From assembly GCF_002355415.1 (NCBI RefSeq), contig NZ_AP014936.1, positions 3,819,501 to 3,883,500 of the forward strand: a stretch of 64,000 bases of DNA, written 5' to 3'. The DNA comes from Sulfurifustis variabilis. GTDB lineage: Bacteria > Pseudomonadota > Gammaproteobacteria > Acidiferrobacterales > Sulfurifustaceae. The notes beneath the pieces were generated by a model that was given only the letters and a program-made list of their open reading frames with translations, was not told the DNA's origin and did no database searches. Position numbers and translations under genes: made by a program. Below are positions 13,169 to 31,830 of this stretch, piece by piece. The first letter of the stretch is position 1. Each line of letters opens with the position of its first letter.

Positions 13169-16008
<2,840 letters not shown>

Positions 16009-16029
16009 CGCCCGGCAAACCGCCTTGCG

Positions 16030-16353
16030 ATGGTCCAGCAACTGACCGTCAAGCAGCTTCATGACTGGCTGAGCAGGGAGGGGGGCCGGCCGGTGATCCT
16101 GGACGTGCGGGAACCGTGGGAACTGCAGGTGTGCGCCCTGCCGGATTCCAGGCACATCCCCATGCGCCAGATCCCGCTGCGCGTCGCGGAGCTCGACCCG
16201 GAGGCCGAGCTGGTGGTGGTCTGCCATCACGGCATCCGCAGCCAGCAAGTGGCGAACTACCTCGACCGCCAAGGCTTCGGCCGCATCTATAACCTGCGAG
16301 GCGGGGTCGACGCCTGGGCCAGGGAGATCGACCCGGGCATGGCGACGTACTGA
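16030..16353 (+). CDS. rhodanese-domain sulfurtransferase
   Basis: A 107-residue single-domain rhodanese with ILDVREPWE and the active-site loop CHHGIRS, Cys65 being the persulfide-carrying residue. YNLRGGVDAWA closes the fold. It lies 21 bases after the PCMT-like gene and 22 before tolC. This arrangement is common in gammaproteobacteria and suggests joint transcription, though no biochemical link among the three is established. Confidence 0.9.
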   Translation: MVQQLTVKQLHDWLSREGGRPVILDVREPWELQVCALPDSRHIPMRQIPLRVAELDPEAELVVVCHHGIRSQQVANYLDRQGFGRIYNLRGGVDAWAREIDPGMATY

Positions 16354-16375
16354 GTACGGGGCGAGGCGCGGACCG

Positions 16376-17716
16376 ATGAGGTTGCCGATCCGCTCCCGCC
16401 TCGCCGGCCTGCTGCTCGCCTTCGCGTCCCCCGCGCCGGCGGACGATCTGCTCGACGTGTATCGCCGTGCCGAGCAGAACGACCCGCGCTTTCGCGCCGC
16501 CACCGCCACGTACCGCGCGGCCCTGGAGCGGCGTCCGCAGGCCCGCGCCGGCCTGCTCCCGCTCATCGAAGCGACCGCCGACGCGACCCGCAACGACAAC
16601 CGCGTCCGGACCGACGCCGGGATCGTGTCGCGGCCGGCCGGGCGCGCCTCTTTCGACAGCACGGGCTACACGCTGAGCCTCACGCAACCGGTCTACAACG
16701 CCGCGGTCTTCGCCGGGCTGCGCCAGGCGGGGGCCGAGGTCCGGCGCGCCGAGGCCCAGTTCGCGGCCGCGCGCCAGGAGCTGATCACGCGTGCCGCGGA
16801 GGCCTACTTTCAGGTCCTCGCCGCGCAGGACGGGCTCGCGCTCGCCGAGGCGGAGCAGACCGCGATCGCGCGTCAGCTCGAGGTCGCCGAGGGACGCCTC
16901 GAGGTCGGACTCGCCGCCATCACCGACGTGCACGACGCGCGGGCGCGCTTCGAGCTCGCGGCCGCGCAGCTCATCGAGGCCCGGAACCTCCTTGCCGACC
17001 GCCGGGAGGCCCTGCGCGAACTGACCGGCGCCGCCCCTGTCGCGCTCGCGCCGCTGGCCGACCTGCCGCTGACCAGACCCGAACCGGCTGAGGTCGACCG
17101 CTGGGTCGAGACGGCCGGACGGCAGAACCTGGCACTGGCCGCGAGCCGCGAGGCGGTCGAGATTGCGCGGGAGGAAGTGCGGCGCCGGCGCGCCGGTCAT
17201 TTTCCGACGCTCGATATCGTGGGCAGCAGGACATACACGGATGACGAAGGTTCGGTCGCCCGGCCCGACGTGAACGTGCGTACGGACAACGAAGCCATCG
17301 GGCTCGAGCTCAACCTGCCGATCTTCCAGGGCGGGCTCGTGGCCGCGCGCACCGCCGAGGCGGCGCAGCTCCTGCAGGCGGCGGAGCAGGAGCTCGAGGC
17401 AGCGGTGCGGGGCGTCGAGCGCGCGACGCGCGCGGCCTATCTCGGCGCGGCGAGCGGCGCCGCGCGCGTGCAGGCGTTGACCCAGGCGGTGGTCGCGAGC
17501 GAATCGGCGCTCGAGGCCAAGCGCGAAGGTTTCGAGGCCGGCATCAACTCCAACATCGACGTGCTCGACGCGAGCCGCGATCTCTTCCGCGCCAGGCGCG
17601 ACCTTGCCGCCGCGCGGTATGATTACGTGCTCAATCTCATGCGGCTCAAGCAGTCGGCCGGCACGCTCGGCGACGAGGACCTCGTGACGGTCAACAACTG
17701 GCTCGGTGCGCGATGA
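16376..17716 (+). CDS. tolC: TolC-family outer-membrane channel
   Basis: Outer-membrane exit duct for type I secretion and efflux systems, 446 residues with a signal peptide ending near ASPAPA. The mature protein opens with DLLDVYRRAEQNDPRFRAA, typical of the TolC subgroup rather than NodT lipoproteins, and there is no lipobox cysteine. Two repeats of strand-helix pairs follow, with the ITDVHDARARFELA and SNIDVLDASRDLFRARRDLA blocks at equivalent positions. GAGG precedes the ATG. Its stop overlaps the next gene's start (ATGA). It is a second outer-membrane channel distinct from the NodT-type protein of the RND operon. Confidence 0.93.
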   Translation: MRLPIRSRLAGLLLAFASPAPADDLLDVYRRAEQNDPRFRAATATYRAALERRPQARAGLLPLIEATADATRNDNRVRTDAGIVSRPAGRASFDSTGYTLSLTQPVYNAAVFAGLRQAGAEVRRAEAQFAAARQELITRAAEAYFQVLAAQDGLALAEAEQTAIARQLEVAEGRLEVGLAAITDVHDARARFELAAAQLIEARNLLADRREALRELTGAAPVALAPLADLPLTRPEPAEVDRWVETAGRQNLALAASREAVEIAREEVRRRRAGHFPTLDIVGSRTYTDDEGSVARPDVNVRTDNEAIGLELNLPIFQGGLVAARTAEAAQLLQAAEQELEAAVRGVERATRAAYLGAASGAARVQALTQAVVASESALEAKREGFEAGINSNIDVLDASRDLFRARRDLAAARYDYVLNLMRLKQSAGTLGDEDLVTVNNWLGAR

Positions 17717-18126
17717 ACGACCCGCGATTCTCCAGCGCCGAGGAGGCCGAAGCGGCGTTCTACCGCGCCTTCGAGCGGCGCGATCTCGACGCCATGATGG
17801 CCGTATGGGCCGACGAAGCGACGGTGGTGTGCGTGCACCCGGGGGGCCCGATGCTCATCGGCCGTGAGGCCGTGCGCGCGAGCTGGGAGCAGATTCTCGG
17901 CGGTGGCGGGTCCGTGGGCTTCACGGTGCAGGAGGTGCGGCGCGAGACGCGCGACGGTCTCGCGGTGCACGTCGTCCAGGAGCACATCCGCGCCGGTGAC
18001 GAGCGGCCGGGCCCGCCGGTGCTCGCGACCAATGTCTACCGGCTCACGGATCGCGGTTGGCGGATGATCCTTCACCATGCCTCGCCGTCGCCCCGGCCGG
18101 CGCGTCCGCGGGGCATGGTGCACTGA
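17713..18126 (+). CDS. NTF2-like (SnoaL/DUF4440) protein
   Basis: A 137-residue cytoplasmic protein of the NTF2-like fold. The N-terminal EEAEAAFYRAFERRDLDAMM and the WADEATVVCVHPGG, REAVRASWEQIL and C-terminal LTDRGWRMILHHASPS blocks match the SnoaL/DUF4440 group. Members bind small molecules or act as enzymes; the role here is unknown. It overlaps the tolC stop by ATGA and closes that operon before a strong terminator. Confidence 0.8.
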   Translation: MNDPRFSSAEEAEAAFYRAFERRDLDAMMAVWADEATVVCVHPGGPMLIGREAVRASWEQILGGGGSVGFTVQEVRRETRDGLAVHVVQEHIRAGDERPGPPVLATNVYRLTDRGWRMILHHASPSPRPARPRGMVH

Positions 18127-18252
18127 CCGACGGGCGATTTTGAACGTTGAAGTCCAATGCTGATTGGCGGCCTGCGCGAAATGCGCACGACGATTCAACA
18201 TCGAGCATTCGACATTTGCTTGTGGGCAAAACGAATAACAGAGCCCAAGAAA

Positions 18253-18277
18253 GGAACAGCCCCCGAAGGGGCTGTCC
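18253..18277. terminator. bidirectional terminator
   Basis: A stem of ten bases (GGACAGCCCC paired with its complement, one side having an extra C) around a GAA loop lies between the tolC operon and the convergent outer-membrane protein gene. It should end transcription from both sides, although the T-runs are short. Confidence 0.6.
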
Positions 18278-18298
18278 GTAACCGGCGGTGGATCCGTC

Positions 18299-18808
18299 CT
18301 ACGGGCGGTAGACGAAGTTGAACTGCAGCGAGCTGATCTCGTCGCGCTCGACGAGCTCCAGGCGGAGCTGCGTCTGCTTGTTCACGTTGAAGCCGCCGCC
18401 AATACCGAACATCAGCCCGTCGTCATCGCCGAAGTCGAAGCCCAGGCGACCGATCAGGTCGAACTGCGGGTTGAGCGCAAGCCGGCCGACGCCCGTCGCC
18501 CAGAGACCTTTCGCATCGCCTTCCGCGCACTGCCTGATGCCGAAAAAGGTGTCGCACGCCTTCATGTCACCGCTGTCCATGTAACCCACCTCGGCGTCCA
18601 GGCTGACGTTTCGCGCCAACTGGCCGAACTCGTAGCCGCCGAAAATCTGGAAGCCGGTGCCCTCGTCGTCGATTCCGGACGCATCATTCTGGCTGATCCC
18701 GGCGCCGAAAAAGAGCTTGGTGGAATCGAATCCCCCCTGGGCGGCAGCCAGCGGGGGTACCGCGAGTGCGGCGGAGAACGTCAACAGCGCAAGCGTCCTG
18801 AGCTTCAT
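18299..18808 (-). CDS. outer-membrane beta-barrel protein
   Basis: A 169-residue protein with a cleavable signal peptide (MKLRTLALLTFSAALAVPPLAAA) and a mature part of alternating beta strands with Gly and aromatic residues, as in the OmpA/OmpX-like eight-stranded barrels. A CDTFFGIRQC segment contains two cysteines that may form a loop disulfide. The start ATG follows GAGGGT; the frame is open further upstream but without a signal sequence. The function is not known. It stands alone downstream of waaA. Confidence 0.75.
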   Translation of the reverse strand: MKLRTLALLTFSAALAVPPLAAAQGGFDSTKLFFGAGISQNDASGIDDEGTGFQIFGGYEFGQLARNVSLDAEVGYMDSGDMKACDTFFGIRQCAEGDAKGLWATGVGRLALNPQFDLIGRLGFDFGDDDGLMFGIGGGFNVNKQTQLRLELVERDEISSLQFNFVYRP

Positions 18809-18967
18809 ATTGTTGTTACCCTCTATATGTTGATTCGACTTGTTGTGCCGGGCAGCGGCGCCAGCCGGACGACCGGCCTTTCGATTGCACGTACCCAACA
18901 AGGTAGACGATAAGCGGTTTTCGCAGCACGTGGCCATTCGCGCCTGTCCGGCGCAAGCGGCCGCTGG

Positions 18968-20311
18968 TCAGGCGTGGGGATCGGCGGGGATCAGTTTGCC
19001 GATCAGTTCCAGCGTTCTTTCGACCGCACCGCGGTTCTCGGCCACCATGCGCTTGCCGGCCTCTCCGGCGTTGAAGCGGCGGTTGGCGTTGCCCATGAAA
19101 TCGCTGATGGCGGGCGCGAGCTGCGTGGCGTTCATGACCTGCACTCCGGCGCCGCGCTCGAGCGTGAGCCGGGCGATCTCCGTGAAATTGTGCATGTGGG
19201 GACCGAACACGACCGGCGTGCCGACGGCCGCCGCCTCGAGCAGGTTGTGCCCGCCGGTCGGCACCAGGCTGCCGCCGATGAACGCCACGTCCGCCGCGCC
19301 ATAGAAGAGCTGCAGCTCGCCCATGGTATCGCCGATGAGCACCTCCACCGCGGCGTCGATGGGGCCGCGTCGCTCGCTCCAAAGAGCGGTGCGGCAGCCG
19401 CTCTTCTTCGTCAGGCGCGCGACCGGCGCGAAGCGTTCCGGGTGGCGCGGCACGATCACGAGCAGGTGATCGGGGAAGCGGCGGGTGAGCTGCGTGCGCG
19501 CGGCGAGCACGAGCTCCTCCTCTCCCTCGTGCGTGCTCGCCGCGAGCCACACGGGCCGGTCCCGCCCCCACTGGCCGCGCAGCACCTCGGTCGCTTCGCG
19601 CACGCTCGCCGAGAGGTTCACGTCGAACTTGATGCTGCCCGTGACGTGCACGATCTCCCCCGGTGCGCCGAGCCGGCGCACGCGCTCGGCGTCCGCCTGC
19701 GTCTGGGGCGCGAGCACCGTGGCCTGCGCGAGCGTCGCGCGCATGAGCCGCGGAAACCGGAGGTAACGCTGCACGGCCCGCTCGGAAAGGCGCAGGTTCG
19801 CCACCATGACGGGGATACCGCGGTCGCGGCAGAGATGAAACAGGTTCGGCCAGAGCTCGGTCTCCATCACGATCGCGATCGCCGGCTGCACGCGATCGAG
19901 AAAGCGGCCGACGGCCGACGGCAGGTCGTACGGCACGTAGCAGTGCGCGACCTCGTCGTCGAAGAGGCGTCGGACCGTGGCCGAGCCGGTCGGCGTCATC
20001 GTGGTGACGAGAAGCCGGTAGCGTGGAAAGCGGTCCAGGAGCGCGCGCACCAGCGGCGCGGCCGCCTGGGTCTCACCGACGGATACCGCGTGGAGCCAGA
20101 TGACCGGACGATCGATCGGTCCGATATGCCCGAAGCGCTCCGAAATGCGCCGCCAGTACCCGGGCAGACGCAGACCCGACCGCGTTCCGTCGGCGGAGCG
20201 CGTCTCGCCGACGAGCGCCCGGATGCCGCGCCAGAACAGCCGCAGCAGGATGAACGGCACCAGCGCGTAGAAGGCGGCCGAGTAGAGGCGAAGCAGGGAT
20301 GAGCGGCTCAC
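18968..20311 (-). CDS. waaA: 3-deoxy-D-manno-octulosonic acid (Kdo) transferase WaaA
   Basis: GT-B glycosyltransferase that adds Kdo to lipid A, the first step of lipopolysaccharide core assembly, at the inner face of the inner membrane. The 447-residue protein has an N-terminal membrane anchor (about residues 5-25). The WLHAVSVGET block holds the catalytic glutamate, and the C-terminal donor-site blocks HPERF, IGDTMGELQLFYGAADVAFIGGSL and GGHNLLEAAAVGTPVVFGP are well conserved. The GTG at 20311 is chosen because the homologous N-terminus begins there; the frame is open up to 20413 without similarity, and no good ribosome binding site is seen at either position. Confidence 0.92.
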   Translation of the reverse strand: MSRSSLLRLYSAAFYALVPFILLRLFWRGIRALVGETRSADGTRSGLRLPGYWRRISERFGHIGPIDRPVIWLHAVSVGETQAAAPLVRALLDRFPRYRLLVTTMTPTGSATVRRLFDDEVAHCYVPYDLPSAVGRFLDRVQPAIAIVMETELWPNLFHLCRDRGIPVMVANLRLSERAVQRYLRFPRLMRATLAQATVLAPQTQADAERVRRLGAPGEIVHVTGSIKFDVNLSASVREATEVLRGQWGRDRPVWLAASTHEGEEELVLAARTQLTRRFPDHLLVIVPRHPERFAPVARLTKKSGCRTALWSERRGPIDAAVEVLIGDTMGELQLFYGAADVAFIGGSLVPTGGHNLLEAAAVGTPVVFGPHMHNFTEIARLTLERGAGVQVMNATQLAPAISDFMGNANRRFNAGEAGKRMVAENRGAVERTLELIGKLIPADPHA

Positions 20312-20448
20312 GGAGGCCGGATGATATCGGCCGGGGACCGGGCGGAACAAGCGCGCCCAGGGGACGGGCTGGAGCGGGATGTTGCTGGAGTCAGGCGGAC
20401 CGCGCCTTGCCACGCGCGGTGAACGTCCGCGAATCGGGCGCTCGGCCC

Positions 20449-21519
20449 TCAGCGTTCTTTCAGCCGATGGTACAGCGCAAGATAGCGGTCAACCACGCGA
20501 TCCTGAGCCAACGCAGCGGGCGGCTCGACACGTCGCCGTCCCGCCGCCCCGAGTTCCCGCCGGGCCGTATCGTCTCGGAGCAGTCGCTTCAGTGCGCCGG
20601 CAAGCAGTGTCGGCTGCTCGCAGGGCGTGAGGATCCCGTCCCGCCCGTCCGCGATGAGCTCAAGCGCCCCGTGGGTCGCAGTGGACAGCACGGGGACTCC
20701 GTGGCTCCACGCCTCGAGAATCACATTGCCGAGCGGCTCGTGGCGAGACGGGCACACGAATACGTCGGCCAGCGCATAGTACGGTCCCGGCTGGTTCTGC
20801 CAGCCGGCCCAGTGCACGCGGCCGGCGATCCCGAGTGCTCGAGCCTGCGTCTCGAGCGATGCGCGCTGGCTGCCATCGCCGACCACCACCAGGTCGATAG
20901 GTCGTCCTCCCGCTGTCGGTGGGAGCTTCGCAAACGCGGCGAGGAGATCATCGAACCCTTTTTTCGCGATCAGCCGACCTACTCCGAGCGTGACCAGTGC
21001 ATCGCCGGGTATGCCGAGCTGCTCGCGAAGCGCCACCAACTCCTCGCGAGCCGCCGGCGCGGGCGGCTCAATGAAGTTCGGAATGTGGTATACCCGCCGT
21101 GCAGGAAAACCATTATCGCGCAGGTAGCCGCAGATTGCCTTGCTGTTGCCGACCCACGCATCGGCGTGCCGATAGCCATCGAGCTTGTAAAAGCCCCCCA
21201 GACGTGCAACGTGGACGATGCCGCTGCCTCTCACATGCGTGAGCCGCGTCGCCCGACCCATGTATGTCTGCACGATGGCCGGCGCCACCTCGCGTACGCG
21301 GCGCGAGACCTGGAAGCGTGAAAGCGGGTCCCACACGGTACGCATCGGGGCGTGAAGAAGCGGAATGCCGGGAGGGACGTGCGGCACGACAGGTCCGTCG
21401 CGGCGCACGAGCGCAATAACCGGCTCGCCACGCTCGTGAAGCGCCTTGATGAGGCGCAGATAAAAACGCTCGGCACCTCCGAATCTCTTGCTGCCGATGA
21501 CGTGAAGCGTCTTGATCAC
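20449..21519 (-). CDS. glycosyltransferase family 4
   Basis: A GT-B retaining glycosyltransferase of 356 residues. The N-terminal IGSKRFGGAERFYLRL is the acceptor-side Gly-rich loop, and the C-terminal donor site has VGRLIAKKGFDDLL and SRHEPLGNVILEAWSHGVPVLST, a variant of the EX7E motif. It is probably a core or outer-core sugar transferase acting in the cytoplasm; donor and acceptor cannot be read. The GTG start overlaps the upstream gene's TGA (GTGA), so the two are coupled. A copy of the same family lies immediately upstream, but this one is not one of the mosaic duplicates. Confidence 0.88.
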   Translation of the reverse strand: MIKTLHVIGSKRFGGAERFYLRLIKALHERGEPVIALVRRDGPVVPHVPPGIPLLHAPMRTVWDPLSRFQVSRRVREVAPAIVQTYMGRATRLTHVRGSGIVHVARLGGFYKLDGYRHADAWVGNSKAICGYLRDNGFPARRVYHIPNFIEPPAPAAREELVALREQLGIPGDALVTLGVGRLIAKKGFDDLLAAFAKLPPTAGGRPIDLVVVGDGSQRASLETQARALGIAGRVHWAGWQNQPGPYYALADVFVCPSRHEPLGNVILEAWSHGVPVLSTATHGALELIADGRDGILTPCEQPTLLAGALKRLLRDDTARRELGAAGRRRVEPPAALAQDRVVDRYLALYHRLKER

Positions 21520-22619
21520 GCCGCGCGCCGCCGTTCGGCCAACCCCCGATACACCCGCAAGTTCCCCTCGACCATGGCGTCGATCGAGAACTCCTCCTCG
21601 ACGATGCGACGCCCGGCCGCGCCCATGCGCCGGCGGCGCCCGGTATCGTGCAGGAGCTCGAGCATCGCTTTCGCAAGCGCCCGCGCGTCACCGGGCGCAA
21701 CGAGGCGGCCGTTCACCCCATCGCGCACGACCTCTGGGATGCCGCCCGCCGCCGCGGCGACGATGGGCAACTGGCAGGCGGCGGCCTGCAGGAGGATCAC
21801 GCCCAGTCCTTCGAGGGTCGCCGGGTGGACGAGCAGATCGAGGCAGGGCAGCAGACGGTCGAGATCCTCGCGAAATCCCACGAAGCGGATCTGTTCCGTC
21901 AGGCCGCGCCGCGTCACTTCCTCGCGCAGCCGCGACTCGAGCGGGCCGCGACCGAAAATCAGAAAGCGTGTCGAAGGAATGGCCGTGAGCACGTGCGGTG
22001 CCGCTTCCAGCAGATAGCGATGGCCCTTGCGCTCGATCATCTGCGCCGCCATGCCGACGACGGGCGAATCGGGCGCCAGGTTGAACGCCTGGCGCCAGTC
22101 GGGCCATCGGCAGCCGGGACGAAATCTTTCGGTGTCGATCGAACTGTGCACGGTCTGCACTTTGGTCCCGCGCACGCCTTCGCTCAGAAGGACCCTGCGA
22201 ACCGCTTCCGAGACCGTGACGACGTGGTCATACAGGTCGTACTTGAGCCGCACGAGCATTCGCGGCTCCGGATTGTCGACCCGCCGCGTGAGCACGCACC
22301 GGACCTGGGCCAGCCGGCCGGCGATCCCGCCGAGCACGTCGGCACCCCGGCGGCTGTGAAGGTGCACGAGCGTCGCATGCTCGGCGCGCAGCACGGCCCG
22401 CAGGCGACCGATAAAGCCAACATCGAGGTCTCCTCGCATCGGCAACGCCCGCACCTCCGCCACCTCGGCGGCCGCCTGCGCGATCGCGCTGCCCTCCGGG
22501 CAGACGAGGATGTTGCGCACACCGCGTGTCTTCAGGCCGCGCAGGAGATAGTAGACCTGCAGGGGACCGCCGTAGAGGTGGCGGCCGCTTTCGACATGCA
22601 CGACGGTGAACGGGATCAT
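21516..22619 (-). CDS. glycosyltransferase family 4, mosaic copy A
   Basis: A 367-residue GT-B glycosyltransferase. The N-terminal half has HVESGRHLYGGPLQVYYLL; the donor-binding half has GMAAQMIERKGHRYLLEA, the ATLEGLGVILLQAAACQLPIVA acidic motif and GGIPEVV. It is collinear, without any indel, with the gene at 23198-24295. The donor half (from DTERF to the last eight residues) is identical at DNA level, whereas residues about 66-93 and 131-160 of the acceptor half are diverged. The start is taken at the ATG giving MIPFTVV; a longer frame continues upstream without similarity. The two enzymes probably use the same sugar donor on different acceptors or linkages. Confidence 0.88.
   Translation of the reverse strand: MIPFTVVHVESGRHLYGGPLQVYYLLRGLKTRGVRNILVCPEGSAIAQAAAEVAEVRALPMRGDLDVGFIGRLRAVLRAEHATLVHLHSRRGADVLGGIAGRLAQVRCVLTRRVDNPEPRMLVRLKYDLYDHVVTVSEAVRRVLLSEGVRGTKVQTVHSSIDTERFRPGCRWPDWRQAFNLAPDSPVVGMAAQMIERKGHRYLLEAAPHVLTAIPSTRFLIFGRGPLESRLREEVTRRGLTEQIRFVGFREDLDRLLPCLDLLVHPATLEGLGVILLQAAACQLPIVAAAAGGIPEVVRDGVNGRLVAPGDARALAKAMLELLHDTGRRRRMGAAGRRIVEEEFSIDAMVEGNLRVYRGLAERRRAA
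21540..22587 (-). repeat. mosaic duplicate region, copy A
   Basis: Matches 23222-24269 at a constant offset of 1682 bases without gaps. Three tracts are identical base for base: 21540-22138 (599 bp), 22226-22340 (115 bp) and 22423-22587 (165 bp). Two islands between them (22139-22225 and 22341-22422) are clearly diverged. This is a signature of repeated gene conversion between tandem copies, or of recombinational reshuffling of one donor module. Confidence 0.95.
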
Positions 22620-23197
22620 GCGGGCGCGAGCGGTTGCCGGGCAGTGGCGAACATGTCGTCGGGCACTAGTCCTCTGCATTCATCCCTGAACACTGCCGCA
22701 CCATTCGCCTGTCATCCGCGTCGGCGGAGAACTGCGGACTTACCAGCATCGGTCGTTGCTCGGCATCCGCTCTCAAGCATGGATGGAACAAAGGTCATCC
22801 GCCGCCACTTTGTCCCGCAACGCTGCTCAAGCCCATAAGGACGTTCCCTAAAGCGGCTGGGGATAGATAGACAGCGGTCTTCGGCTGGTGTCGTCGAGCG
22901 CCGGGTCCCGCTTGATGGAGGTCGATTTGAGACCGGCGCTCGGATGCCGGCGATGAAGAACTCGTATTCGAGAAATCCCGTACCGGGATTCACCGAATAT
23001 CAGCGGGGCCTTCCCGGCACCTTGGGCGAGCGTTCGTTAATGGGTAACTCCCCCTCCACCAGAACCTTCGGACACCCCGAGGTCTGCGGTGCAGCGCGCG
23101 TCAGGTGTGTGGCCGTTCGCTACGGCGATGCGCTGCAGCCGATCAGTCGACGGGTGGGTACCCTCCCCCCGATCTCCGGCCGAGTGCTTTTGCGTCC
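22620..23197. other. 578-base gap between the two mosaic GT4 genes
   Basis: No gene with recognisable similarity is visible. A 93-residue minus-strand frame at 22712-22993 exists but has no ribosome binding site or family match. The notable feature is the nested inverted repeat at 22965-22999. The region interrupts an otherwise tightly packed minus-strand operon and may hold a promoter for copy A. Confidence 0.5.
22965..22999. repeat. nested inverted repeat
   Basis: Inner stem AATCCCG/CGGGATT with loop TAC (22974-22990) and outer stem TATTCG/CGAATA (22965-22970, 22994-22999), separated by three unpaired bases on each side. No T-run follows, so it is not a typical terminator. It could be a repeat-element hairpin or a structured RNA. 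Confidence 0.5.
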
Positions 23198-24295
23198 TCA
23201 ATCGAAGTTGGTCGATGCCAGCAACCCCCGATACACCCGCAAGTTCCCCTCGACCATGGCGTCGATCGAGAACTCCTCCTCGACGATGCGACGCCCGGCC
23301 GCGCCCATGCGCCGGCGGCGCCCGGTATCGTGCAGGAGCTCGAGCATCGCTTTCGCAAGCGCCCGCGCGTCACCGGGCGCAACGAGGCGGCCGTTCACCC
23401 CATCGCGCACGACCTCTGGGATGCCGCCCGCCGCCGCGGCGACGATGGGCAACTGGCAGGCGGCGGCCTGCAGGAGGATCACGCCCAGTCCTTCGAGGGT
23501 CGCCGGGTGGACGAGCAGATCGAGGCAGGGCAGCAGACGGTCGAGATCCTCGCGAAATCCCACGAAGCGGATCTGTTCCGTCAGGCCGCGCCGCGTCACT
23601 TCCTCGCGCAGCCGCGACTCGAGCGGGCCGCGACCGAAAATCAGAAAGCGTGTCGAAGGAATGGCCGTGAGCACGTGCGGTGCCGCTTCCAGCAGATAGC
23701 GATGGCCCTTGCGCTCGATCATCTGCGCCGCCATGCCGACGACGGGCGAATCGGGCGCCAGGTTGAACGCCTGGCGCCAGTCGGGCCATCGGCAGCCGGG
23801 ACGAAATCTTTCGGTGTCGACGGCATCGCGTGCCGTCTGTAGCTTCGCGAGGGGGACGCCTTCGCCCAGCAGGACCTTTTGAATCCCTTCCGAGATGGTG
23901 ATGACCCGGTCATACAGGTCGTACTTGAGCCGCACGAGCATTCGCGGCTCCGGATTGTCGACCCGCCGCGTGAGCACGCACCGGACCTGGGCCAGCCGGC
24001 CGGCGATCCCGCCGAGCACGTCCGAGCCCCGCCGGCTGTGGAGGTGCAACAGGGCCGGTTTTTCCGTGCGTAACAGCCGCCGAAGTCGAACCATGAAGCC
24101 GAGGTCGAGGTCTCCTCGCATCGGCAACGCCCGCACCTCCGCCACCTCGGCGGCCGCCTGCGCGATCGCGCTGCCCTCCGGGCAGACGAGGATGTTGCGC
24201 ACACCGCGTGTCTTCAGGCCGCGCAGGAGATAGTAGACCTGCAGGGGACCGCCGTAGAGGTGGCGGCCGGTCTCCACGTGTACGATCGTCATCAT
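23198..24295 (-). CDS. glycosyltransferase family 4, mosaic copy B
   Basis: A 365-residue GT-B glycosyltransferase, duplicate of the gene at 21516-22619. It differs from copy A in the first few residues (MMTIVHVETG), in residues about 64-91 and 129-158, and in the last seven residues (LASTNFD against AERRRAA). The donor half is identical at DNA level, including the ERKGHRYLLEA and ATLEGLGVILL motifs. The ATG overlaps the upstream heptosyltransferase stop (ATGA), so it is translated as part of that operon. A second ATG follows at once and could also serve. Confidence 0.88.
   Translation of the reverse strand: MMTIVHVETGRHLYGGPLQVYYLLRGLKTRGVRNILVCPEGSAIAQAAAEVAEVRALPMRGDLDLGFMVRLRRLLRTEKPALLHLHSRRGSDVLGGIAGRLAQVRCVLTRRVDNPEPRMLVRLKYDLYDRVITISEGIQKVLLGEGVPLAKLQTARDAVDTERFRPGCRWPDWRQAFNLAPDSPVVGMAAQMIERKGHRYLLEAAPHVLTAIPSTRFLIFGRGPLESRLREEVTRRGLTEQIRFVGFREDLDRLLPCLDLLVHPATLEGLGVILLQAAACQLPIVAAAAGGIPEVVRDGVNGRLVAPGDARALAKAMLELLHDTGRRRRMGAAGRRIVEEEFSIDAMVEGNLRVYRGLLASTNFD
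23222..24269 (-). repeat. mosaic duplicate region, copy B
   Basis: Partner of 21540-22587: identical tracts 23222-23820, 23908-24022 and 24105-24269, with diverged islands 23821-23907 and 24023-24104. Confidence 0.95.
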
Positions 24296-25326
24296 GCGCG
24301 CACGAGCAGCTGACGTGCGATCGCGAGGACCTCTTCGGGTACGATCTCCCGCATGCAGGTGTAGGCGCCGCCGCACGTCGGGCTGCGGTGGCAGGGGGAA
24401 CAGGGCAGGGCCTTGTAAAGTACAACCGTCTTGTCAGAGTCGGTCACCCGATACGGGCAGGTCGAACCGAAGAGGGCGATGGTCGGAGTGCCGAAGGCGG
24501 TGCCCATATGCATGAGGCCGGTGTCGACGCCGACGAGCAGGCGCGCGCGCTCGATCAGCGCCGCCGCCTCGCGCAGGGTCGTCCGGCCGGTTGCGTCGAG
24601 AACGAATTTCGCGGAGCGAGTAATCGCGTCCGCGGCCGTGCGGTCACCCGGACCGCCGAGCATGACGACCTTCAATCCGAGCTCATCCTGCAGTCGCCCT
24701 GCGAGAGCAGCCCACGAGGCGTCGAGCCAATGCTTCTGTGGACGGGTTGTGAACGGACAGATCACCGCATAGCCTGCTCCGAGCGAGTGCTTCTCGATGA
24801 AACGCCGGGCGAAATCGCGATCCGCCTCGCTCAGCGCGACGTGCATCTCGTAAGGTTCGGCCGCAAGCCCGAGCACCTCTGCAAGATGGCGGTACTCGGC
24901 CCCAATCCGCGTCTCACCCTCCGGCTTATCAATCACGCGGGTCATGAACACACGACTCCCCTCCTTCGAGCCAAGACCCACCCGCTCGCGTGCCCCGCTG
25001 AGCCGAGCCCAGACGCCACTCTTCATCAGGCCCTGAAGATCGAGCGCGAGATCGAATCGCTCCTTACGCAACCCCCCGATGAAGGACATCGCCTCGCGGA
25101 GCAAACTCCACCAACGCCCGCCTCGCAGCAACCGCCGCCATTCCCCGCGCGGCCAGACGATCACCTCGTCGAGCGCCGTATTGGCCTGCAACAAGGCGGC
25201 GGCCTCGGGCTGGACGAGCCAGGCGAGATGCGCCGTAGGGTACCTGGCCCGCAGTGCCGCGATCAGCGGCGAGGCCATAATCACGTCGCCGATTGCGCTC
25301 AGGCGGATAATCAGTATTGACGGCGT
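24292..25326 (-). CDS. glycosyltransferase family 9, LPS heptosyltransferase-like
   Basis: Inverting heptosyltransferase of the WaaC/WaaF/RfaF type, about 344 residues, transferring heptose (or a related sugar) from an ADP donor onto the lipopolysaccharide core. SILIIRLSAIGDVIMASPLI is the N-terminal block, ICPFTTRPQKHW the central one, and VGVDTGLMHMGTAFGTPTIALFGST the donor-binding block. A Cys-rich CSPCHRSPTCGGAYTCM stretch follows, typical of the family. Oddly, no ATG, GTG or TTG is in frame between the preceding gene's stop and the conserved start. Candidates are ACG (25326), ATA (25317) and CTG (25314); the start given is a guess. Confidence 0.85.
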   Translation of the reverse strand, partial: TPSILIIRLSAIGDVIMASPLIAALRARYPTAHLAWLVQPEAAALLQANTALDEVIVWPRGEWRRLLRGGRWWSLLREAMSFIGGLRKERFDLALDLQGLMKSGVWARLSGARERVGLGSKEGSRVFMTRVIDKPEGETRIGAEYRHLAEVLGLAAEPYEMHVALSEADRDFARRFIEKHSLGAGYAVICPFTTRPQKHWLDASWAALAGRLQDELGLKVVMLGGPGDRTAADAITRSAKFVLDATGRTTLREAAALIERARLLVGVDTGLMHMGTAFGTPTIALFGSTCPYRVTDSDKTVVLYKALPCSPCHRSPTCGGAYTCMREIVPEEVLAIARQLLVRA

Positions 25327-25361
25327 GCCCGCGGGAGCCGAGGAATTGGTGCGGCCCGAGT

Positions 25362-26087
25362 TTAGTTGCTGATGTTCCAGAACGAGTACTCGTTGCAGGT
25401 GGCCGATATCCAGGAAATCCGAAAACCGTGAGCCCTGAGCAAACGAACGGCCTCTTTCGTCTTGCGGGCACCGATGGTGGGAAAGCGGTGGTGAAACTCG
25501 ACCAGCAACTGACGGACCGGAATACGTTCCTCGAGTAAGTCCTGCAACACATCGTACTCCGCTCCTTCGATGTCCATCTTGAGGATATCGATCCGGTCGT
25601 GGCCGAGCTCTCGCATAACGCTCCTCAGCCGACGAGCGGCAACTCGGTGTGAGGGTGTCTGACCCGGAATGCGCGCCTGCAGCGTGCTGCATTTGCTGCC
25701 GGGTACGGGAGCGAAAAAATCGACAGTTCCGTCTTTGTCGGAGATCGCCACCGGCTGGTAACGAAAGCGCCCGGGCAGAGACTGCCGGGCGATCCATTCA
25801 GCCGTTTCAGGGGTCGGATCGAAGGCGTACACGCGCACGCCGTACCGTTCGATCAGCGACAGATCGAAGGACACGTCATCGCCAATTCCAAGCGAATAGA
25901 CGATGCTGTCCCCCGTGACGCCCTCCGGGCTGATCGCCCAGCCGCACCTTTCCGAGCCGTGCCACTCGACCGGCCGGTACAGATCGCGCGTATAGAGGAC
26001 GCCCTTGCCTTGCAGCCACCGTGCAATGGCGCGCAAGCGTCGGCGAAATTTCTTTGGAAGCTTCAACTGTGGATCCATGGGAACCAC
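25362..26087 (-). CDS. FkbM-family SAM methyltransferase
   Basis: A 241-residue SAM-dependent methyltransferase. SIVYSLGIGDDVSFD is the SAM-binding loop, VYAFDPTPETAEW the acidic motif, and DILKMDIEGAEYDVLQDL the FkbM signature; AARRLRSVM precedes it as usual. Members in polysaccharide loci O-methylate sugars, which would fit here. The GTG at 26087 has AGGGGG at a good distance; an ATG nine bases later (MDPQLK) is the alternative. It lies between the O-antigen ligase gene and the heptosyltransferase gene in one operon. Confidence 0.85.
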   Translation of the reverse strand: MVPMDPQLKLPKKFRRRLRAIARWLQGKGVLYTRDLYRPVEWHGSERCGWAISPEGVTGDSIVYSLGIGDDVSFDLSLIERYGVRVYAFDPTPETAEWIARQSLPGRFRYQPVAISDKDGTVDFFAPVPGSKCSTLQARIPGQTPSHRVAARRLRSVMRELGHDRIDILKMDIEGAEYDVLQDLLEERIPVRQLLVEFHHRFPTIGARKTKEAVRLLRAHGFRISWISATCNEYSFWNISN

Positions 26088-26118
26088 GAGAGCCGGCCCC
26101 CTTCGAACGCTGATGATA

Positions 26119-27405
26119 TCAAGACTCGGATTGCGGCGGCGCGCCAGGTTTACCGCTCGCCTGCCGCCCGGACCAAGCGGTGCTGTACGCCATGGCGCTC
26201 AGCAGGATGATGAGAAAGCGCACCTCACTGGTCGGCCGGAAGTTGGCCGTAGCCCAGATCGCGGCAACAGCGAAGGCAGCGGCTATAAAGACGAACGAGT
26301 CGGTCGCCAGTCTCCCTGCGCGAACCGCGTGCCAAGCACTTCGCCCCATCAGCCACAGCGCTGCGCCGAAGATCGCCATACCGAGCAATCCCAACCTGAC
26401 AAGAATCTCAAGATACGTGTTGTGCAAGTGCCCGATGCCTTCCGGCACCGACTTGATGGTCGGTGCCACGCGGGTTCCGGGGCCCCAACCGAACAATGGG
26501 CGTTCACGCCAGCGCTCGATCCCGTGTCGCAGGAGCTCCACGCGTATCTCGACGGGGTCGTCCGCCACGTCGTGCGCGTGATCCGAGGTACGGCTCAGGG
26601 CTTCCGCGCTGTGTAGATACTGCGTATATCGAAGCCCGATGACGTCCCGGTTCACGAACAGGACGAAGATTATGGAACCGCCGACGACCGCCAGAGCCAG
26701 CAAAGTCCGGGCGCGTGAGACAGGAAACCCCTTTTTGTAGGCTTGCGAAATCGTCAGCAGGGCCGTCACCGAGCCGATGACCACCACGGCGATCCAACTG
26801 ATTCGCGATTGGGTAATCAACAGCATCTGGATAACGAGCGCAAGGATGCCGACCCAGAGCACGAGCCGCGCGAGCGCCGCCCAGCGCGGCCGGTAACCCC
26901 CGAGGAACCGCGGAGCAAAGCACGCGAGGCCGACCGCCGCTACCGCACTGAACAGGCCGGCCTGTGGAATTCCGTAGCCGAAGCCCGCCCGCATGCCTTC
27001 GATCAGCAGGGACAGCTCGGTCCAGTCCTGCCTTCGGGCCGCGCCCAGAAGGAAACCGATGAGTGCGACGCCGGCGAGCGCGGGAATGGCCCGCGCATCC
27101 AGCCATCGTGCGACGAAAACGAAAAGCCAGACGCCTGTCCAGGTCGCCGCGAGATCCAGCTGTTCGCTGGCTGTTTCCGGGAACTCGTAGATGGCCCAGG
27201 CGGTCCGCAGGGCGATATAAATCAGGAACAGCCCGAGCAGGCGCACCATGGGATCCCGCCACAGCGACCCTGCCCGGAGGGGCGGGCTCAGGACGAACGC
27301 ACATACCATGGAAAACAGGCCAATGCCCGCGAGCGTCGTACTGAAGAAGCCGCCGATGGCAAAGGCGTACAGCCCGACGATCCCCAGTCGCTCGCTGGCC
27401 GGCAT
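26119..27405 (-). CDS. O-antigen ligase/polymerase family (Wzy_C, WaaL-like)
   Basis: A polytopic inner-membrane protein of about 428 residues with eleven or twelve hydrophobic segments. A large periplasmic loop (about residues 235-320) contains RPLFGWGPGTRV and HLHNTYLEILVRLGLLG, the Wzy_C signature with the key His and Arg. Such proteins ligate O-antigen to the lipid A core or polymerise repeat units. I take the ATG giving MPASERLG; a TTG 51 bases upstream is also open, and neither has a good ribosome binding site. It is the first gene of the minus-strand glycan operon and is divergent from the GT2 gene. Confidence 0.85.
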   Translation of the reverse strand: MPASERLGIVGLYAFAIGGFFSTTLAGIGLFSMVCAFVLSPPLRAGSLWRDPMVRLLGLFLIYIALRTAWAIYEFPETASEQLDLAATWTGVWLFVFVARWLDARAIPALAGVALIGFLLGAARRQDWTELSLLIEGMRAGFGYGIPQAGLFSAVAAVGLACFAPRFLGGYRPRWAALARLVLWVGILALVIQMLLITQSRISWIAVVVIGSVTALLTISQAYKKGFPVSRARTLLALAVVGGSIIFVLFVNRDVIGLRYTQYLHSAEALSRTSDHAHDVADDPVEIRVELLRHGIERWRERPLFGWGPGTRVAPTIKSVPEGIGHLHNTYLEILVRLGLLGMAIFGAALWLMGRSAWHAVRAGRLATDSFVFIAAAFAVAAIWATANFRPTSEVRFLIILLSAMAYSTAWSGRQASGKPGAPPQSES

Positions 27406-27682
27406 GGGCGGTTGCGAACGGGAAAGCAGTCGGTCGAAAGAGCGGATATGGATCAAACGAGAGTCTGCGCTGCGAAATTCAGGTCACGCGCACCGATCGA
27501 TCGTGTGGTTCACGCCAACCTGCGTCCTACTCAACCGGATGCCGGCAGAGTCGGCCGGCGGGAAACGGAGGATGCCTCATAACACGGCTGAGATCGAGCG
27601 GGGGTGGGGCGGCCGATCGGGAAACGGCAGGCGGGGCCTGTCGGAATGCACGATTCACGAAGCCGTTGCGCTGACGACGGCG

Positions 27683-27712
27683 TTGTCGGCGAGGAGCCGC
27701 GTCCGTTAACAT
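27683..27712 (+). promoter_or_regulatory. putative promoter of the plus-strand glycan operon
   Basis: TTGTCG (27683-27688), an 18-bp spacer and TAACAT (27707-27712) lie 29 bases before the GT2 start codon. The -10 context (TTAACATNNCCCG) recurs before the next glycan gene at 28742. The 284-base divergent gap (27457-27740) otherwise shows nothing definite. Confidence 0.4.
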
Positions 27713-27740
27713 CGCCCGCTCGACCCTCCTCCCAGGAAAC

Positions 27741-28697
27741 ATGCCCGAAGACCACTCAGCACCAGCCGGTTCGGCTCCCCGGGACTGCTCCTTCACCATT
27801 TTCATCCCGACCTACAACCGTGCCCACATCCTGCCGCAGGCGCTTGAAAGCGTCGAGCGGCTGACCACTCGCGATTTCGAAGTGCTGATTGTCGACGACG
27901 GTTCGACCGACCGGACTCGCGAACTCGTGCAGACATGGAGCGCGAACGCATCGTTTCCCATCCGCTACATCTGGCAGGAAAACCAGGGCATGCACGCCTC
28001 CCACAATACGGCGATCGCCAACGCCCGCGGGCGACTGTTCATGCGGCTCGATTCGGACGACATGATACTTCCCGAGGCGTTGGAACGCATCAAAACGCAC
28101 TGGGATGCGATCCCGGACGACCGGAAGCCAGAGTTCGCCGGCGTGGCCGGCATGTGCCTCAACGAGGACGGAAGTGTGTCGGGCGATCGCTATCCCGAGG
28201 ACGTCATCGATTCCGACTACCTCGAGATATTCACCCGCTGCCGCATGAACGGGGAAAGGCGCGAGTGCTTGCGCACCGAGGTACTGCGGGAGTTTCCCTT
28301 CCCGCGTATCGACGGGGAGCGGCGTTTGCGCTCCACACTGATCCTGCGGCGCATGGCGCACCGCTACAAAATCCGCTTTACCAATGAGTTGCTGCAGATC
28401 AACCGGCACGCAGCCGGCGGGATCACGGCCAACCGCTTCAAGTACCGGATGCTATACCCCAAGGGGCAGCGTCTTTTCTATCTCGAAGAGATCACTCTGA
28501 ACGATCGCTACACTCGATTGAGGCGGCTTCTGCGCCAGCACAGGCAGTACGTCCGCTACTCACTGCACAGCGGGATAGGGGTCGGCCGTCAGGCGGCCGA
28601 GGTCAAGCACCGATTGGTATGGTTGGGCGCGCTTCCCGCGGGCGCGCTACACTGGTTGCGCGATCGCACCCGCCTGCGTTGGTGGAACAGGATTTGA
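27741..28697 (+). CDS. glycosyltransferase family 2
   Basis: A GT-A fold inverting glycosyltransferase of 318 residues. SFTIFIPTYNRAHILPQALES is the N-terminal nucleotide-binding strand, VLIVDDGSTDRT holds the first aspartates, and MRLDSDDMILPEAL is the DXD metal-binding motif. The C-terminal third is strongly basic (RLRRLLRQHRQYVR), suggesting a peripheral membrane contact. It probably adds a sugar to the surface glycan in the cytoplasm. AGGAAA precedes the ATG. It opens the plus-strand gene series divergent from the O-antigen ligase gene. Confidence 0.88.
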   Translation: MPEDHSAPAGSAPRDCSFTIFIPTYNRAHILPQALESVERLTTRDFEVLIVDDGSTDRTRELVQTWSANASFPIRYIWQENQGMHASHNTAIANARGRLFMRLDSDDMILPEALERIKTHWDAIPDDRKPEFAGVAGMCLNEDGSVSGDRYPEDVIDSDYLEIFTRCRMNGERRECLRTEVLREFPFPRIDGERRLRSTLILRRMAHRYKIRFTNELLQINRHAAGGITANRFKYRMLYPKGQRLFYLEEITLNDRYTRLRRLLRQHRQYVRYSLHSGIGVGRQAAEVKHRLVWLGALPAGALHWLRDRTRLRWWNRI

Positions 28698-28718
28698 GGG
28701 CCGAGGCGGGCGGGAAAA

Positions 28719-28747
28719 TTGTCTCTCTGCCCTCTTCCCATTAACAT
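28719..28747 (+). promoter_or_regulatory. putative promoter before the GT4 series
   Basis: TTGTCT (28719-28724), a 17-bp spacer and TAACAT (28742-28747) stand in the gap after the GT2 gene. The boxes resemble those at 27683-27712, so the two may share one sigma factor or regulator. Confidence 0.4.
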
Positions 28748-28791
28748 ACCCGGTCCCGTTCACGCCCATGGCCGGCCGACCCGGCGACTTT

Positions 28792-28822
28792 TTTGTCACC
28801 ACGCTTCTTTGTCACCACGCTT
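28792..28822. repeat. 15-bp tandem direct repeat
   Basis: TTTGTCACCACGCTT occurs at 28792-28806 and again at 28808-28822, in the leader just before the GT4 start codon at 28831. It may be a slippage product affecting the leader length. Confidence 0.8.
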
Positions 28823-28830
28823 CCCTCCCG

Positions 28831-29955
28831 ATGACGAATCGCCCGGATCTTGCCGTACTGGTGGCATCGCTTTACGACGGAGGCGTCGGGAAGATGCGAG
28901 TGCGTCTCATGAACGAGATCGTGCGCCGCGGGTACACGGTCGATCTGGTGACTGCCAGGAGCGACAGTCCCTACATGAAGCAGCTGAGTCCCGCCATCCG
29001 CGTGGTGCCGATCGGGACGACGCATGCGCTGACCGGCGTTCCGGCACTCGCTCGTTACCTGTGGAGTACGCGTCCCCGCGTGATGTTGTCTCAGCGCACG
29101 CGGGTGAACGTGCTGGCCTTGCGGGCACGAACTCTTGCTCGATCCGGGACCCGAATGTTCCTGACCGTGAACGTGAATCTGACGAGCAAACTCGACGCCG
29201 TGGGAGGGCGCAAGAGAGAGAAAGGGCTGGCACAGCTGCGGAAGTACTTCCCGCGCAACGACGGCATCATCGCCGTGTCGCGAGGCGTGGCCGATGACGT
29301 TGCCCGACTGCTCGGCTGGCCGCCCGAGCGCATTCGTGTCGCCCCGAATCCGACAGTGACGCCGGCGATTTATGAGGCGGCCAAAATGCCGCTCGATCAC
29401 CCGTGGTTCACATCGGGAGAGGTTCCGGTGTTCCTGGGTGTGGGCAGGCTCGTGCCCGAGAAGGATTTCGCGAACCTGCTGCACGCCTTTGCCAAAGTTC
29501 GTGCCACCCGTCACTGCCGATTGGTCATACTGGGCGAAGGACCCGAGCGACCGAAGCTGCTGGCGCTCTCCGCAAAGCTGGGACTGGCCGACGATGCACA
29601 GCTGCCCGGCTTCGTGGACAACCCGTACGCCTATATGGCGCGCGCGAGCGTGTTTGTACTCTCCTCGACCCGCGAGGGCCTGCCCAACGCCCTGACCGAG
29701 GCGCTCGCAGTCGGGGTGCCCGTGGTTTCGACCGACTGCCCCAACGGCCCGTACGAAATCCTGGAAGCAGGCCGTCACGGCCCCCTTGTACCCGTCGGCG
29801 ACAGTGAAGCGCTCGCGGCGGCGATGACGGCTACACTTGAACACCCGACCGAACGCGCTGCGCGACAGGCGGCGGCGCAACGTTACACAGTCGAACGGAG
29901 CGCGTCCGTCTATCTGGAAGCAATGGGTTTCGCAGCGGCCGGCGCGGCCACATGA
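28831..29955 (+). CDS. glycosyltransferase family 4, array member 1
   Basis: A 374-residue GT-B glycosyltransferase. The N-terminus (MTNRPDLAVLVASLYDGGVGKM) holds the Gly-rich acceptor loop; VAPNPTVTPAI, VFLGVGRLVPEKDFANLL and SSTREGLPNALTEALAVGVPVVSTDCPNGPYEIL form the donor site with the EX7E motif. It shares this frame with the next three GT4 genes, showing tandem expansion. The ATG is chosen by alignment with its neighbour; an in-frame ATG 63 bases upstream would include the direct repeat and has no family similarity. Its stop overlaps the next ATG (ATGA). Confidence 0.88.
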   Translation: MTNRPDLAVLVASLYDGGVGKMRVRLMNEIVRRGYTVDLVTARSDSPYMKQLSPAIRVVPIGTTHALTGVPALARYLWSTRPRVMLSQRTRVNVLALRARTLARSGTRMFLTVNVNLTSKLDAVGGRKREKGLAQLRKYFPRNDGIIAVSRGVADDVARLLGWPPERIRVAPNPTVTPAIYEAAKMPLDHPWFTSGEVPVFLGVGRLVPEKDFANLLHAFAKVRATRHCRLVILGEGPERPKLLALSAKLGLADDAQLPGFVDNPYAYMARASVFVLSSTREGLPNALTEALAVGVPVVSTDCPNGPYEILEAGRHGPLVPVGDSEALAAAMTATLEHPTERAARQAAAQRYTVERSASVYLEAMGFAAAGAAT

Positions 29956-31064
29956 GGCGTCAGCCGGATCTCGCGGTTTTCGTCGCGTCGCTGTTCCACG
30001 GGGGCGTCGGCAAGATGCGCGTGCACCTGATAAACGAGATGGCCCGGCAGGGTCATCGCGTGGAACTGCTTCTAGCGGATCGCGACAGCCCGTACATGAA
30101 CCTGGTCAGCCCGGAGATACGGGTCGTTCACGTCGGCACCTCGAACGCCGTCACAGGTATTCCCGCCATCGCCCTGTACCTGCTCCGCGCGCGGCCACGC
30201 GTGATGCTGGCCCAGCGGGTTCGCGTGAATGTCCTGTCGCTTCGCGCCCGCACCCTGACACGCGCCAGGACGCGGATGTTCGTCACCGTCAACACCAACA
30301 TGTCGCGCGAGCTCGCTGCGCTGAAGCCGCAGAAACACGCTCGCCACCTCCACCTTCTGAAGAAGTACTACCCGCACAACGACGGCATTATCGCCGTGTC
30401 GCACGGGGTGGCGGCGGACCTTTCCCGGCTGATCGGCATTCCGTTGCGCCATATCGACGTCGCTCCCAATCCGACCGTCACCCCGGAGCTCGAGCGGATG
30501 GCGGCCGAGCCTCTGGACGATCCCTGGTTTGCCTCCGGCGAGCCGCCCGTGATCGTCGGCATGGGGCGGCTCGAGCCACAAAAGGATTTTCCCACCCTGC
30601 TCCGTGCCTTCGCGATCTTGCGGCGCAAACGCCGTTGCCGGCTGATCGTTCTCGGGGAAGGCAAGGAGCGGGAATCTCTGCTGCGGCAGGCGACGGAGCT
30701 TGGAATCGCCGAAGACGTCCGGTTTCCCGGTTTCGTGAAGAACCCGTATGCGTATCTCTCCCGCGCGGCGTTATTCGCGCTCTCGTCCGCATGGGAGGGA
30801 TCACCCAACAGCCTGACCGAAGCGCTCGCGCTCGGCACCCCGCTCGTTTCGACCGATTGTCCGGACGGGCCTCGCGAGATACTGGAAAATGGTCACCATG
30901 GGCCGCTTGTCCCGGTCGGCGATGCCGACGCGCTCGCGGCGGCCATGACGACGACGCTGGAACGGCCACCCGACCGCAGACAGCTGCAAGCGGCGGCGCA
31001 GCGCTACACGCTCCAACGCAGCGCAACCGCCTACCTTCGTGCGCTCGGTCTGAGCAGCGACTAG
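29952..31064 (+). CDS. glycosyltransferase family 4, array member 2
   Basis: A 370-residue GT-B glycosyltransferase, the closest relative of the preceding gene: MRRQPDLAVFVASLFHGGVGKMRVHLINEM parallels its N-terminus almost residue for residue. The donor half has VAPNPTVTPELERM, GMGRLEPQKDFPTLLRAF, and SSAWEGSPNSLTEALALGTPLVSTDCP. It overlaps the previous stop by ATGA. Strong similarity over the full length with a changed middle suggests duplication followed by change of acceptor. Donor and linkage are unknown. Confidence 0.88.
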   Translation: MRRQPDLAVFVASLFHGGVGKMRVHLINEMARQGHRVELLLADRDSPYMNLVSPEIRVVHVGTSNAVTGIPAIALYLLRARPRVMLAQRVRVNVLSLRARTLTRARTRMFVTVNTNMSRELAALKPQKHARHLHLLKKYYPHNDGIIAVSHGVAADLSRLIGIPLRHIDVAPNPTVTPELERMAAEPLDDPWFASGEPPVIVGMGRLEPQKDFPTLLRAFAILRRKRRCRLIVLGEGKERESLLRQATELGIAEDVRFPGFVKNPYAYLSRAALFALSSAWEGSPNSLTEALALGTPLVSTDCPDGPREILENGHHGPLVPVGDADALAAAMTTTLERPPDRRQLQAAAQRYTLQRSATAYLRALGLSSD

Positions 31065-31118
31065 TTGCTTCTCGCGGATGCGCGCACACGGACTCTAGTC
31101 TCACCGGGAACCGCTCGG

Positions 31119-31736: not shown

Positions 31737-31830
31737 TCGTGCACTCCGCTCGGGTGCCCAAAACCCGCGCTGTCGGTCGTCCGCCCGGGCTCGTGCCGCT
31801 CGGTCCCGGCACCCGCCGCATTGCCTCCCG

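Follow-up and report, generated by a model that had tools for sequence, protein, structure and literature searches.

Two tandem glycosyltransferase genes of family GT4, here called A and B, are located on the minus strand of a 64,000-nucleotide stretch of the chromosome of Sulfurifustis variabilis, a sulfur-oxidising bacterium (contig NZ_AP014936.1, positions 3,819,501 to 3,883,500; this whole stretch is the window, and its own numbering is used below). They form a mosaic of long identical tracts and short, strongly diverged islands. The pair is best explained as old tandem twins that were recently homogenised by gene conversion, the islands having presumably passed the limit of RecA and an apparent loss of MutS and MutL perhaps easing the exchange (probability about 0.83). 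Interlocus gene conversion is a known process, of which A and B provide a clean and supported case.

At an offset of +1682 and without any indel, A and B displayed three runs identical at every base (599, 115 and 165 bp), interrupted by island 2 (56 matches over 87 bp) and island 1 (53 matches over 82 bp). This was exactly the pattern claimed in an earlier, sequence-only reading of this DNA. Pooled, the two islands were 64.5 % identical, and none of the 60 mismatches within the 1048-bp span fell outside them. When 60 mismatches were scattered at random 20,000 times, no run exceeded 223 bp and the three longest summed to at most 355 bp, against 599 and 879 bp observed. With the ATG at 22619 as first codon, the islands of protein A corresponded to residues 66-93 and 132-161, close to the earlier estimate of ~66-93 and ~131-160. 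A and B were also diverged at both gene ends, over the first ~10 codons (22588-22619) and the last seven, and identity ended inside the coding sequence at the 5' and the 3' end alike.

Islands and tracts differed widely in apparent age. Within the islands, the codons of A and B differed at the first, second and third positions in 20, 11 and 29 of 58 cases, with a nonsynonymous divergence (dN) of 0.33-0.35 and a synonymous divergence (dS) of 0.99-1.02 (dN/dS ~0.33 on average). The two proteins had 30 of the 58 island residues in common; the best relative shared 38 with A, and the best relative of B shared 39 with it. Tracts displayed no change although they comprise 235.7 synonymous sites, which limits their dS to 0.0127 (95 % upper bound); at the divergence of the islands ~312 mismatches were expected in their 879 bp, and none was seen. 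The tracts were thus far more alike than the rest of the pair, synonymous sites included.

A second relic of old divergence was found upstream of A. The 82 bp preceding this gene could be aligned to the 3'-terminal part of the heptosyltransferase gene preceding B with 52 identities, 29 mismatches and one gap and, in the heptosyltransferase frame, read VPDDMFATARQPLAPA* against VPEEVLAIARQLLVRA*. Ungapped, this remnant matched at 35 of 60 positions, versus at most 30 of 60 when 18,217 further offsets, spaced seven bases apart on either strand, were tried across the window. Its 60-nt local score of 19 was reached by none of 5000 shuffles, and the 15 of 21 matches beside the start codon of A by none of 20,000. 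The heptosyltransferase-like signal was confined to the part of the gap adjoining the start of A, and comparison of the entire gap with the GT4 gene did not rise above shuffles. The flank upstream of A was as diverged as the islands. Because islands (dS ~1) and heptosyltransferase remnant have both decayed, the divergence of the pair is old, and older than the identity of the tracts. Since remnant and islands are equally diverged, the identical tracts, much younger than either, are attributed to recent gene conversion. A recent tandem duplication was not supported, as identity failed to run through the flanks: it stopped inside both coding ends and the heptosyltransferase tail before A was decayed. 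The proposal of gene conversion between tandem GT4 paralogs, already made in the sequence-only reading, was supported by the diverged gene ends, the decayed tail before A, the long-read genome and the lack of a third close copy.

Table 1. Coordinates (window numbering) of genes A and B, of their tracts and islands, and of neighbouring features
Feature	Position	Strand	Remark
Gene A, GT4 glycosyltransferase, 367 aa	21516..22619	-	ATG 22617-22619
Gene B, GT4 glycosyltransferase, 365 aa	23198..24295	-	ATG 24293-24295
Identical tract 3, copy A	21540..22138	-	599 bp, C-terminal domain
Identical tract 3, copy B	23222..23820	-	offset 1682
Island 2, copy A	22139..22225	-	87 bp, residues 132-161
Island 2, copy B	23821..23907	-	A/B comparison
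Identical tract 2, copy A	22226..22340	-	115 bp, N-terminal domain
Identical tract 2, copy B	23908..24022	-	A/B comparison
Island 1, copy A	22341..22422	-	82 bp, residues 66-93
Island 1, copy B	24023..24104	-	A/B comparison
Identical tract 1, copy A	22423..22587	-	165 bp, N-terminal domain
Identical tract 1, copy B	24105..24269	-	A/B comparison
Intergenic gap between B and A	22620..23197	.	578 bp
Decayed heptosyltransferase 3'-end remnant upstream of A	22620..22701	-	aligned to 24296-24376
Heptosyltransferase I-like gene	24292..25317	-	listed open reading frame 24292-25797; profile match from residue 161; start inferred
Further GT4 gene downstream of A, distant paralog	20449..21519	-	
Kdo transferase (waaA-like)	18968..20413	-	above NF004388 cut-off
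FkbM-type methyltransferase	25362..26087	-	profile scan
O-antigen ligase-like (Wzy_C) protein	26119..27456	-	profile scan
mutS and mutL matches in both positive family genomes			loci L086-L089

The following history is proposed. A lipopolysaccharide-core GT4 gene would have been duplicated in place, as a unit starting within the last part (3' end) of the heptosyltransferase gene upstream. This is the simplest origin that we infer for the pair; of the two flanking junctions, B retains that with the heptosyltransferase and A that with the GT4 gene. Acquisition of a diverged homolog that brought a heptosyltransferase end with it would look the same. The copies would then have drifted apart to ~65 % DNA identity, as judged from the parts that can still be compared (dS ~1), and recent conversion would have rendered 879 bp or more identical, visible as three tracts. 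Conversion may have recurred, keeping the tracts exchangeable and never far drifted; the islands may have become too divergent for RecA strand exchange and be no longer convertible, and the apparent loss of MutS and MutL may have eased such exchange. Relics of the old divergence would persist in the two islands, at the very 5' and 3' ends and in the flank upstream. Number, direction and recurrence of the conversion events are conjectural. Recurrent conversion is favoured because a single event across 35 % divergence would be hard for RecA.

Several points weigh against this history. Recurrence is an assumption and was not seen. With copies already diverged throughout, a single event is hard to envisage, since 35 %-diverged DNA recombines very poorly even without mismatch repair. 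In vitro, RecA exchange was reported to be absent at 30 % overall divergence (PMC6382021). According to the same source, loss of MutSL in transformation of Bacillus subtilis had a two-fold effect up to 15 % divergence and a 40-100-fold effect at 23 %. In the lambda assay described in PMC2327257, RecABCD recombination at 22 % divergence was low and 2.2-fold higher without mutS. Segment trees (islands, N-terminal-domain tracts and C-terminal-domain tract), built from few columns and with long branches, placed the tracts with neither A nor B. Of the six breakpoints five were tested, and they were not significantly located in conserved columns (p 0.14-0.23). Over eight stretches around glycosyltransferase matches and the window (206,508 bp together), no other identical-tract pair was encountered, only partial matches of 71-81 %; the mismatch-repair state therefore does not make conversion common there. 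The entire gap compared with the heptosyltransferase gene scored 22, within the range of shuffles (n=40, mean 19.5, maximum 29). Sulfurifustis was represented among the searched genomes by this one genome only. The set of relatives comprised 43 sequences, family matches L045-L051 being left out. Far relatives L013, L014, L041, L042 and L043 were omitted from trees and statistics, and B additionally from the tract trees.

The mismatch-repair part of the proposal was addressed with models TIGR01070 (MutS) and TIGR00585 (MutL), neither of which matched in this genome. As a control, the MutS model matched 11 and the MutL model all 14 of 14 named genomes (11 of the latter above cut-off). Among 20 genomes of the same bacterial family (own included), MutS was found in two, which also harbored MutL above cut-off, adjacent and on the same contig. 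Five others displayed only short MutL matches, far under cut-off. Neither protein was thus detected at cut-off in 17 of the 19 other family genomes, many of which are incomplete. Only one of the eight family genomes with a completeness of 90 % or more and a contamination of 5 % or less displayed MutS, and the single-contig family genome G004 matched neither model. As indicated by these profile searches, canonical mismatch repair has likely been lost widely in the family; that this loss is linked to conversion between A and B is advanced here as a hypothesis. Recombination between Escherichia coli and Salmonella was reported to rise ~1000-fold without MutS or MutL, up to 16 % divergence (PMC6382021, citing earlier work), and bacteria lacking MutS and MutL but possessing NucS are described in Actinobacteria (PMC5290159, PMC8228993). 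A literature search in which subscription journals were thinly covered returned no recognisable paper on missing mutS and mutL in this family, nor one on conversion between such glycosyltransferase paralogs, or paralogs generally, that concerned this locus.

For relatives of A and B, the class-level sample contained matches in 30 of 369 genomes (own included) at E <= 1e-60, and further samples at 1e-100 in 2 of 4, 12 of 47 and 1 of 1 genomes, with one match each. The best relatives were 53-58 % identical. Another set of 59 genomes yielded only two matching genomes at 1e-40 (33-35 % identity), and in a phylum sample of 398 genomes only the own genome matched at 1e-80. Scans of contig collections gave only two weak loci among genome contigs (29 % and 27 % identity) and none among viral contigs. 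Neighbourhoods were surveyed at 20 loci from 19 genomes (L066 and L067 belonging to one genome) over stretches of 7 to 20 kb, of which at least L069, L071 and L072 ended near the gene at a contig edge. A single such GT4 gene directly followed the heptosyltransferase gene at 17 of the 20 loci, and three of the 20 displayed the order heptosyltransferase, this gene, GT4. The tandem pair was seen at none of the 20, a few of which ended at contig edges. One further genome (G290) displayed two copies, on separate contigs.

Whether the islands are maintained by selection for different acceptors or linkages, rather than by a limit to recombination, is a question compatible with the conversion history, and selection appears possible but rather doubtful. 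Against 29 references (near-duplicates L018, L023, L029, L033, L074, L077, L079, L081 and L082 being left out), the islands of A and B were less similar to relatives than their N-terminal-domain tracts predicted (z -2.4 and -1.9), with only 1 and 2 of the 29 references lower. Judged against all tracts, z was only -1.6 and -1.1. In the islands, the end branches of the two copies were long, at 0.77 and 0.70 (median 0.14), as compared with 0.35 and 0.48 in the tract trees, all on few columns. Both genes were intact, and each displayed an unusual residue: position 159 (island 2) was D in B and S in A as well as in 28 of the 29 references, and position 136 was V in A and I in all 29. On the other hand, dN/dS was ~0.33, many island changes were conservative (V/I/L, R/K) and both proteins share the same HSRRG core in island 1. 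The earlier claim that selection keeps acceptor islands is favoured only by a weak signal, the excess of divergence, and the dN/dS does not demonstrate positive selection.

The C-terminal domain of GT4 enzymes mainly binds the donor. The suggested homogenisation of the donor half held insofar as the 599-bp tract contains the C-terminal domain, and failed insofar as the other two tracts both belong to the N-terminal domain. In the GT4 enzyme GlgM, the N-terminal domain is expected to set the acceptor, and Asn171 is listed among residues that it shares with glycogen synthases (PMC7137382). This residue is taken to lie in the donor site. In BshA and Alr3699, position 159 aligned with the N of the motif N-x-I/V-D, of which x was F/G and the third residue I/F, and in PimB' with an S; it would correspond to GlgM Asn171 and is probably donor-side. 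A functional difference between A and B is possible. The idea of one donor and two acceptors or linkages is weakly supported, in view of the N-terminal-domain tracts, the island dN/dS of ~0.33 and position 159. A more ambitious view, in which a lineage without MutS and MutL would recurrently convert one scaffold while two selected islands (~28-30 residues) set two lipopolysaccharide-core specificities, is unlikely; if true, two enzymes would be evolving as one gene except for specificity modules.

Quite improbable is a recent tandem duplication of the whole gene, followed by replacement of the islands and both ends of one copy by short pieces of a diverged homolog from outside. It would account for the sharp island borders and for islands as diverged between A and B as from other families, and the best island tree did not pair A with B. 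A sister relation of A and B in the islands was nevertheless not rejected (approximately unbiased test, p-AU 0.256). Such a history would moreover require four separate replacements, identity stopping within both coding ends. The heptosyltransferase remnant before A was already decayed, to ~64 %, and the genome displayed no close donor copy: it forms a single contig of 3,958,814 bases in which a protein search detected no third close copy of A and B (next best 129.8 bits).

An artefact of assembly or polishing, which would have given two diverged genes the same sequence or copied a single gene in silico, can be considered very improbable. A nearby perfect repeat of 599 bp is a usual site of such errors, and the matter was judged from the published sequencing figures. 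Strain skN76T (AP014936) was sequenced on a PacBio RS II at 210x from a 15-20 kb library to a circular chromosome, with 79,017 subreads totalling 837,333,548 bp (PMC5024460). A falsely assembled duplicate is unlikely because these reads (mean ~10.6 kb as derived from the two published totals) exceed the 2.8-kb pair, and the distinct islands, gap and flanks place them uniquely.

Gene conversion drives antigen variation in other systems (references listed in PMC4530459), and A and B occupy a lipopolysaccharide-core position, but the phase- or antigen-variation device considered in the sequence-only reading, which would shuffle acceptor islands, is not supported and very improbable: only two close copies were found, both of full length, no silent island cassette was detected in the genome (by a protein search, which very short cassettes could escape), no recombinase occurred among 15 distinct proteins scanned at 15246-32937, and the host is described as an autotroph isolated from a lake.

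The pair is embedded in a locus read on the minus strand in the order O-antigen ligase-like protein, FkbM methyltransferase, heptosyltransferase I-like protein, B, gap, A, GT4 and Kdo transferase, so that it lies next to the heptosyltransferase gene at a lipopolysaccharide-core position. From these neighbour genes, A and B probably act in lipopolysaccharide-core synthesis. The ATG of B overlaps the stop of the heptosyltransferase gene, and the stop of A overlaps the GTG start of the downstream GT4 gene by 2 bp. Both proteins carry Glyco_transf_4 and Glycos_transf_1 domains above Pfam cut-off. Their best NCBIfam model was TIGR03088 (PEP-CTERM/XrtA glycosyltransferase stp2), an assignment rejected at 141.1 and 151.0 bits, far under the curated cut-off of 409.05.

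Between the genes, 22702-23197 constitutes ~500 bp of apparently noncoding DNA in a locus otherwise tightly packed. The gap part 22680-23197 displayed no second copy in the genome and no convincing coding frame, and a scan of 22500-23300 detected no terminator and a single promoter-like site, on the opposite strand. The sole Rfam match was a thiamine pyrophosphate (TPP) riboswitch at 15131-15233 (-, 62.4 bits), away from A and B. Further GT4 genes follow in a row at 28768-29955, 29952-31064 and 31237-32937 (+), with DNA similarity of 72-78 % in pieces, and provide a handy unconverted comparison beside the pair.

Genes A and B constitute an unusually clean natural record of paralog conversion, with unconverted parts ~35 % diverged and an older decayed flank. 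As the bacterium probably lacks canonical mismatch repair, they offer a natural setting in which to consider how far divergence alone limits conversion. As enzymes whose differences are nearly confined to two short stretches, they are also a ready pair for mapping GT4 specificity.

Comparable pairs are known elsewhere. Genes futA and futB of Helicobacter pylori are, like A and B, paralogous lipopolysaccharide glycosyltransferases of one genome, and they recombine with each other. They are, however, phase-variable poly-C genes of a pathogen, and such repeats were not noticed in A and B; phase variation of the fut genes is described in PMC9136243. In the copepod Tigriopus californicus, high-divergence regions of GOT1p1 and GOT1p2 likewise persist despite apparently ongoing conversion (PMC3728101), in an animal and in several populations rather than in one genome. 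Release factors RF1 and RF2 of Bacteroidia and Chloroflexi similarly display conversion between distant paralogs confined to a domain of shared function; these events are older and tree-inferred (PMC4530459), whereas A and B became perfectly identical recently and keep small islands within a single domain. The tuf genes of Salmonella resemble A and B in being paralogs of the same chromosome with identity ending at the gene ends, in their contiguous tracts of hundreds of bases and in the blocking of conversion by large heterology (PMC5485169). As reported there, the tuf copies differ at 12 sites, while A and B stand in tandem and their unconverted parts are 35 % diverged.

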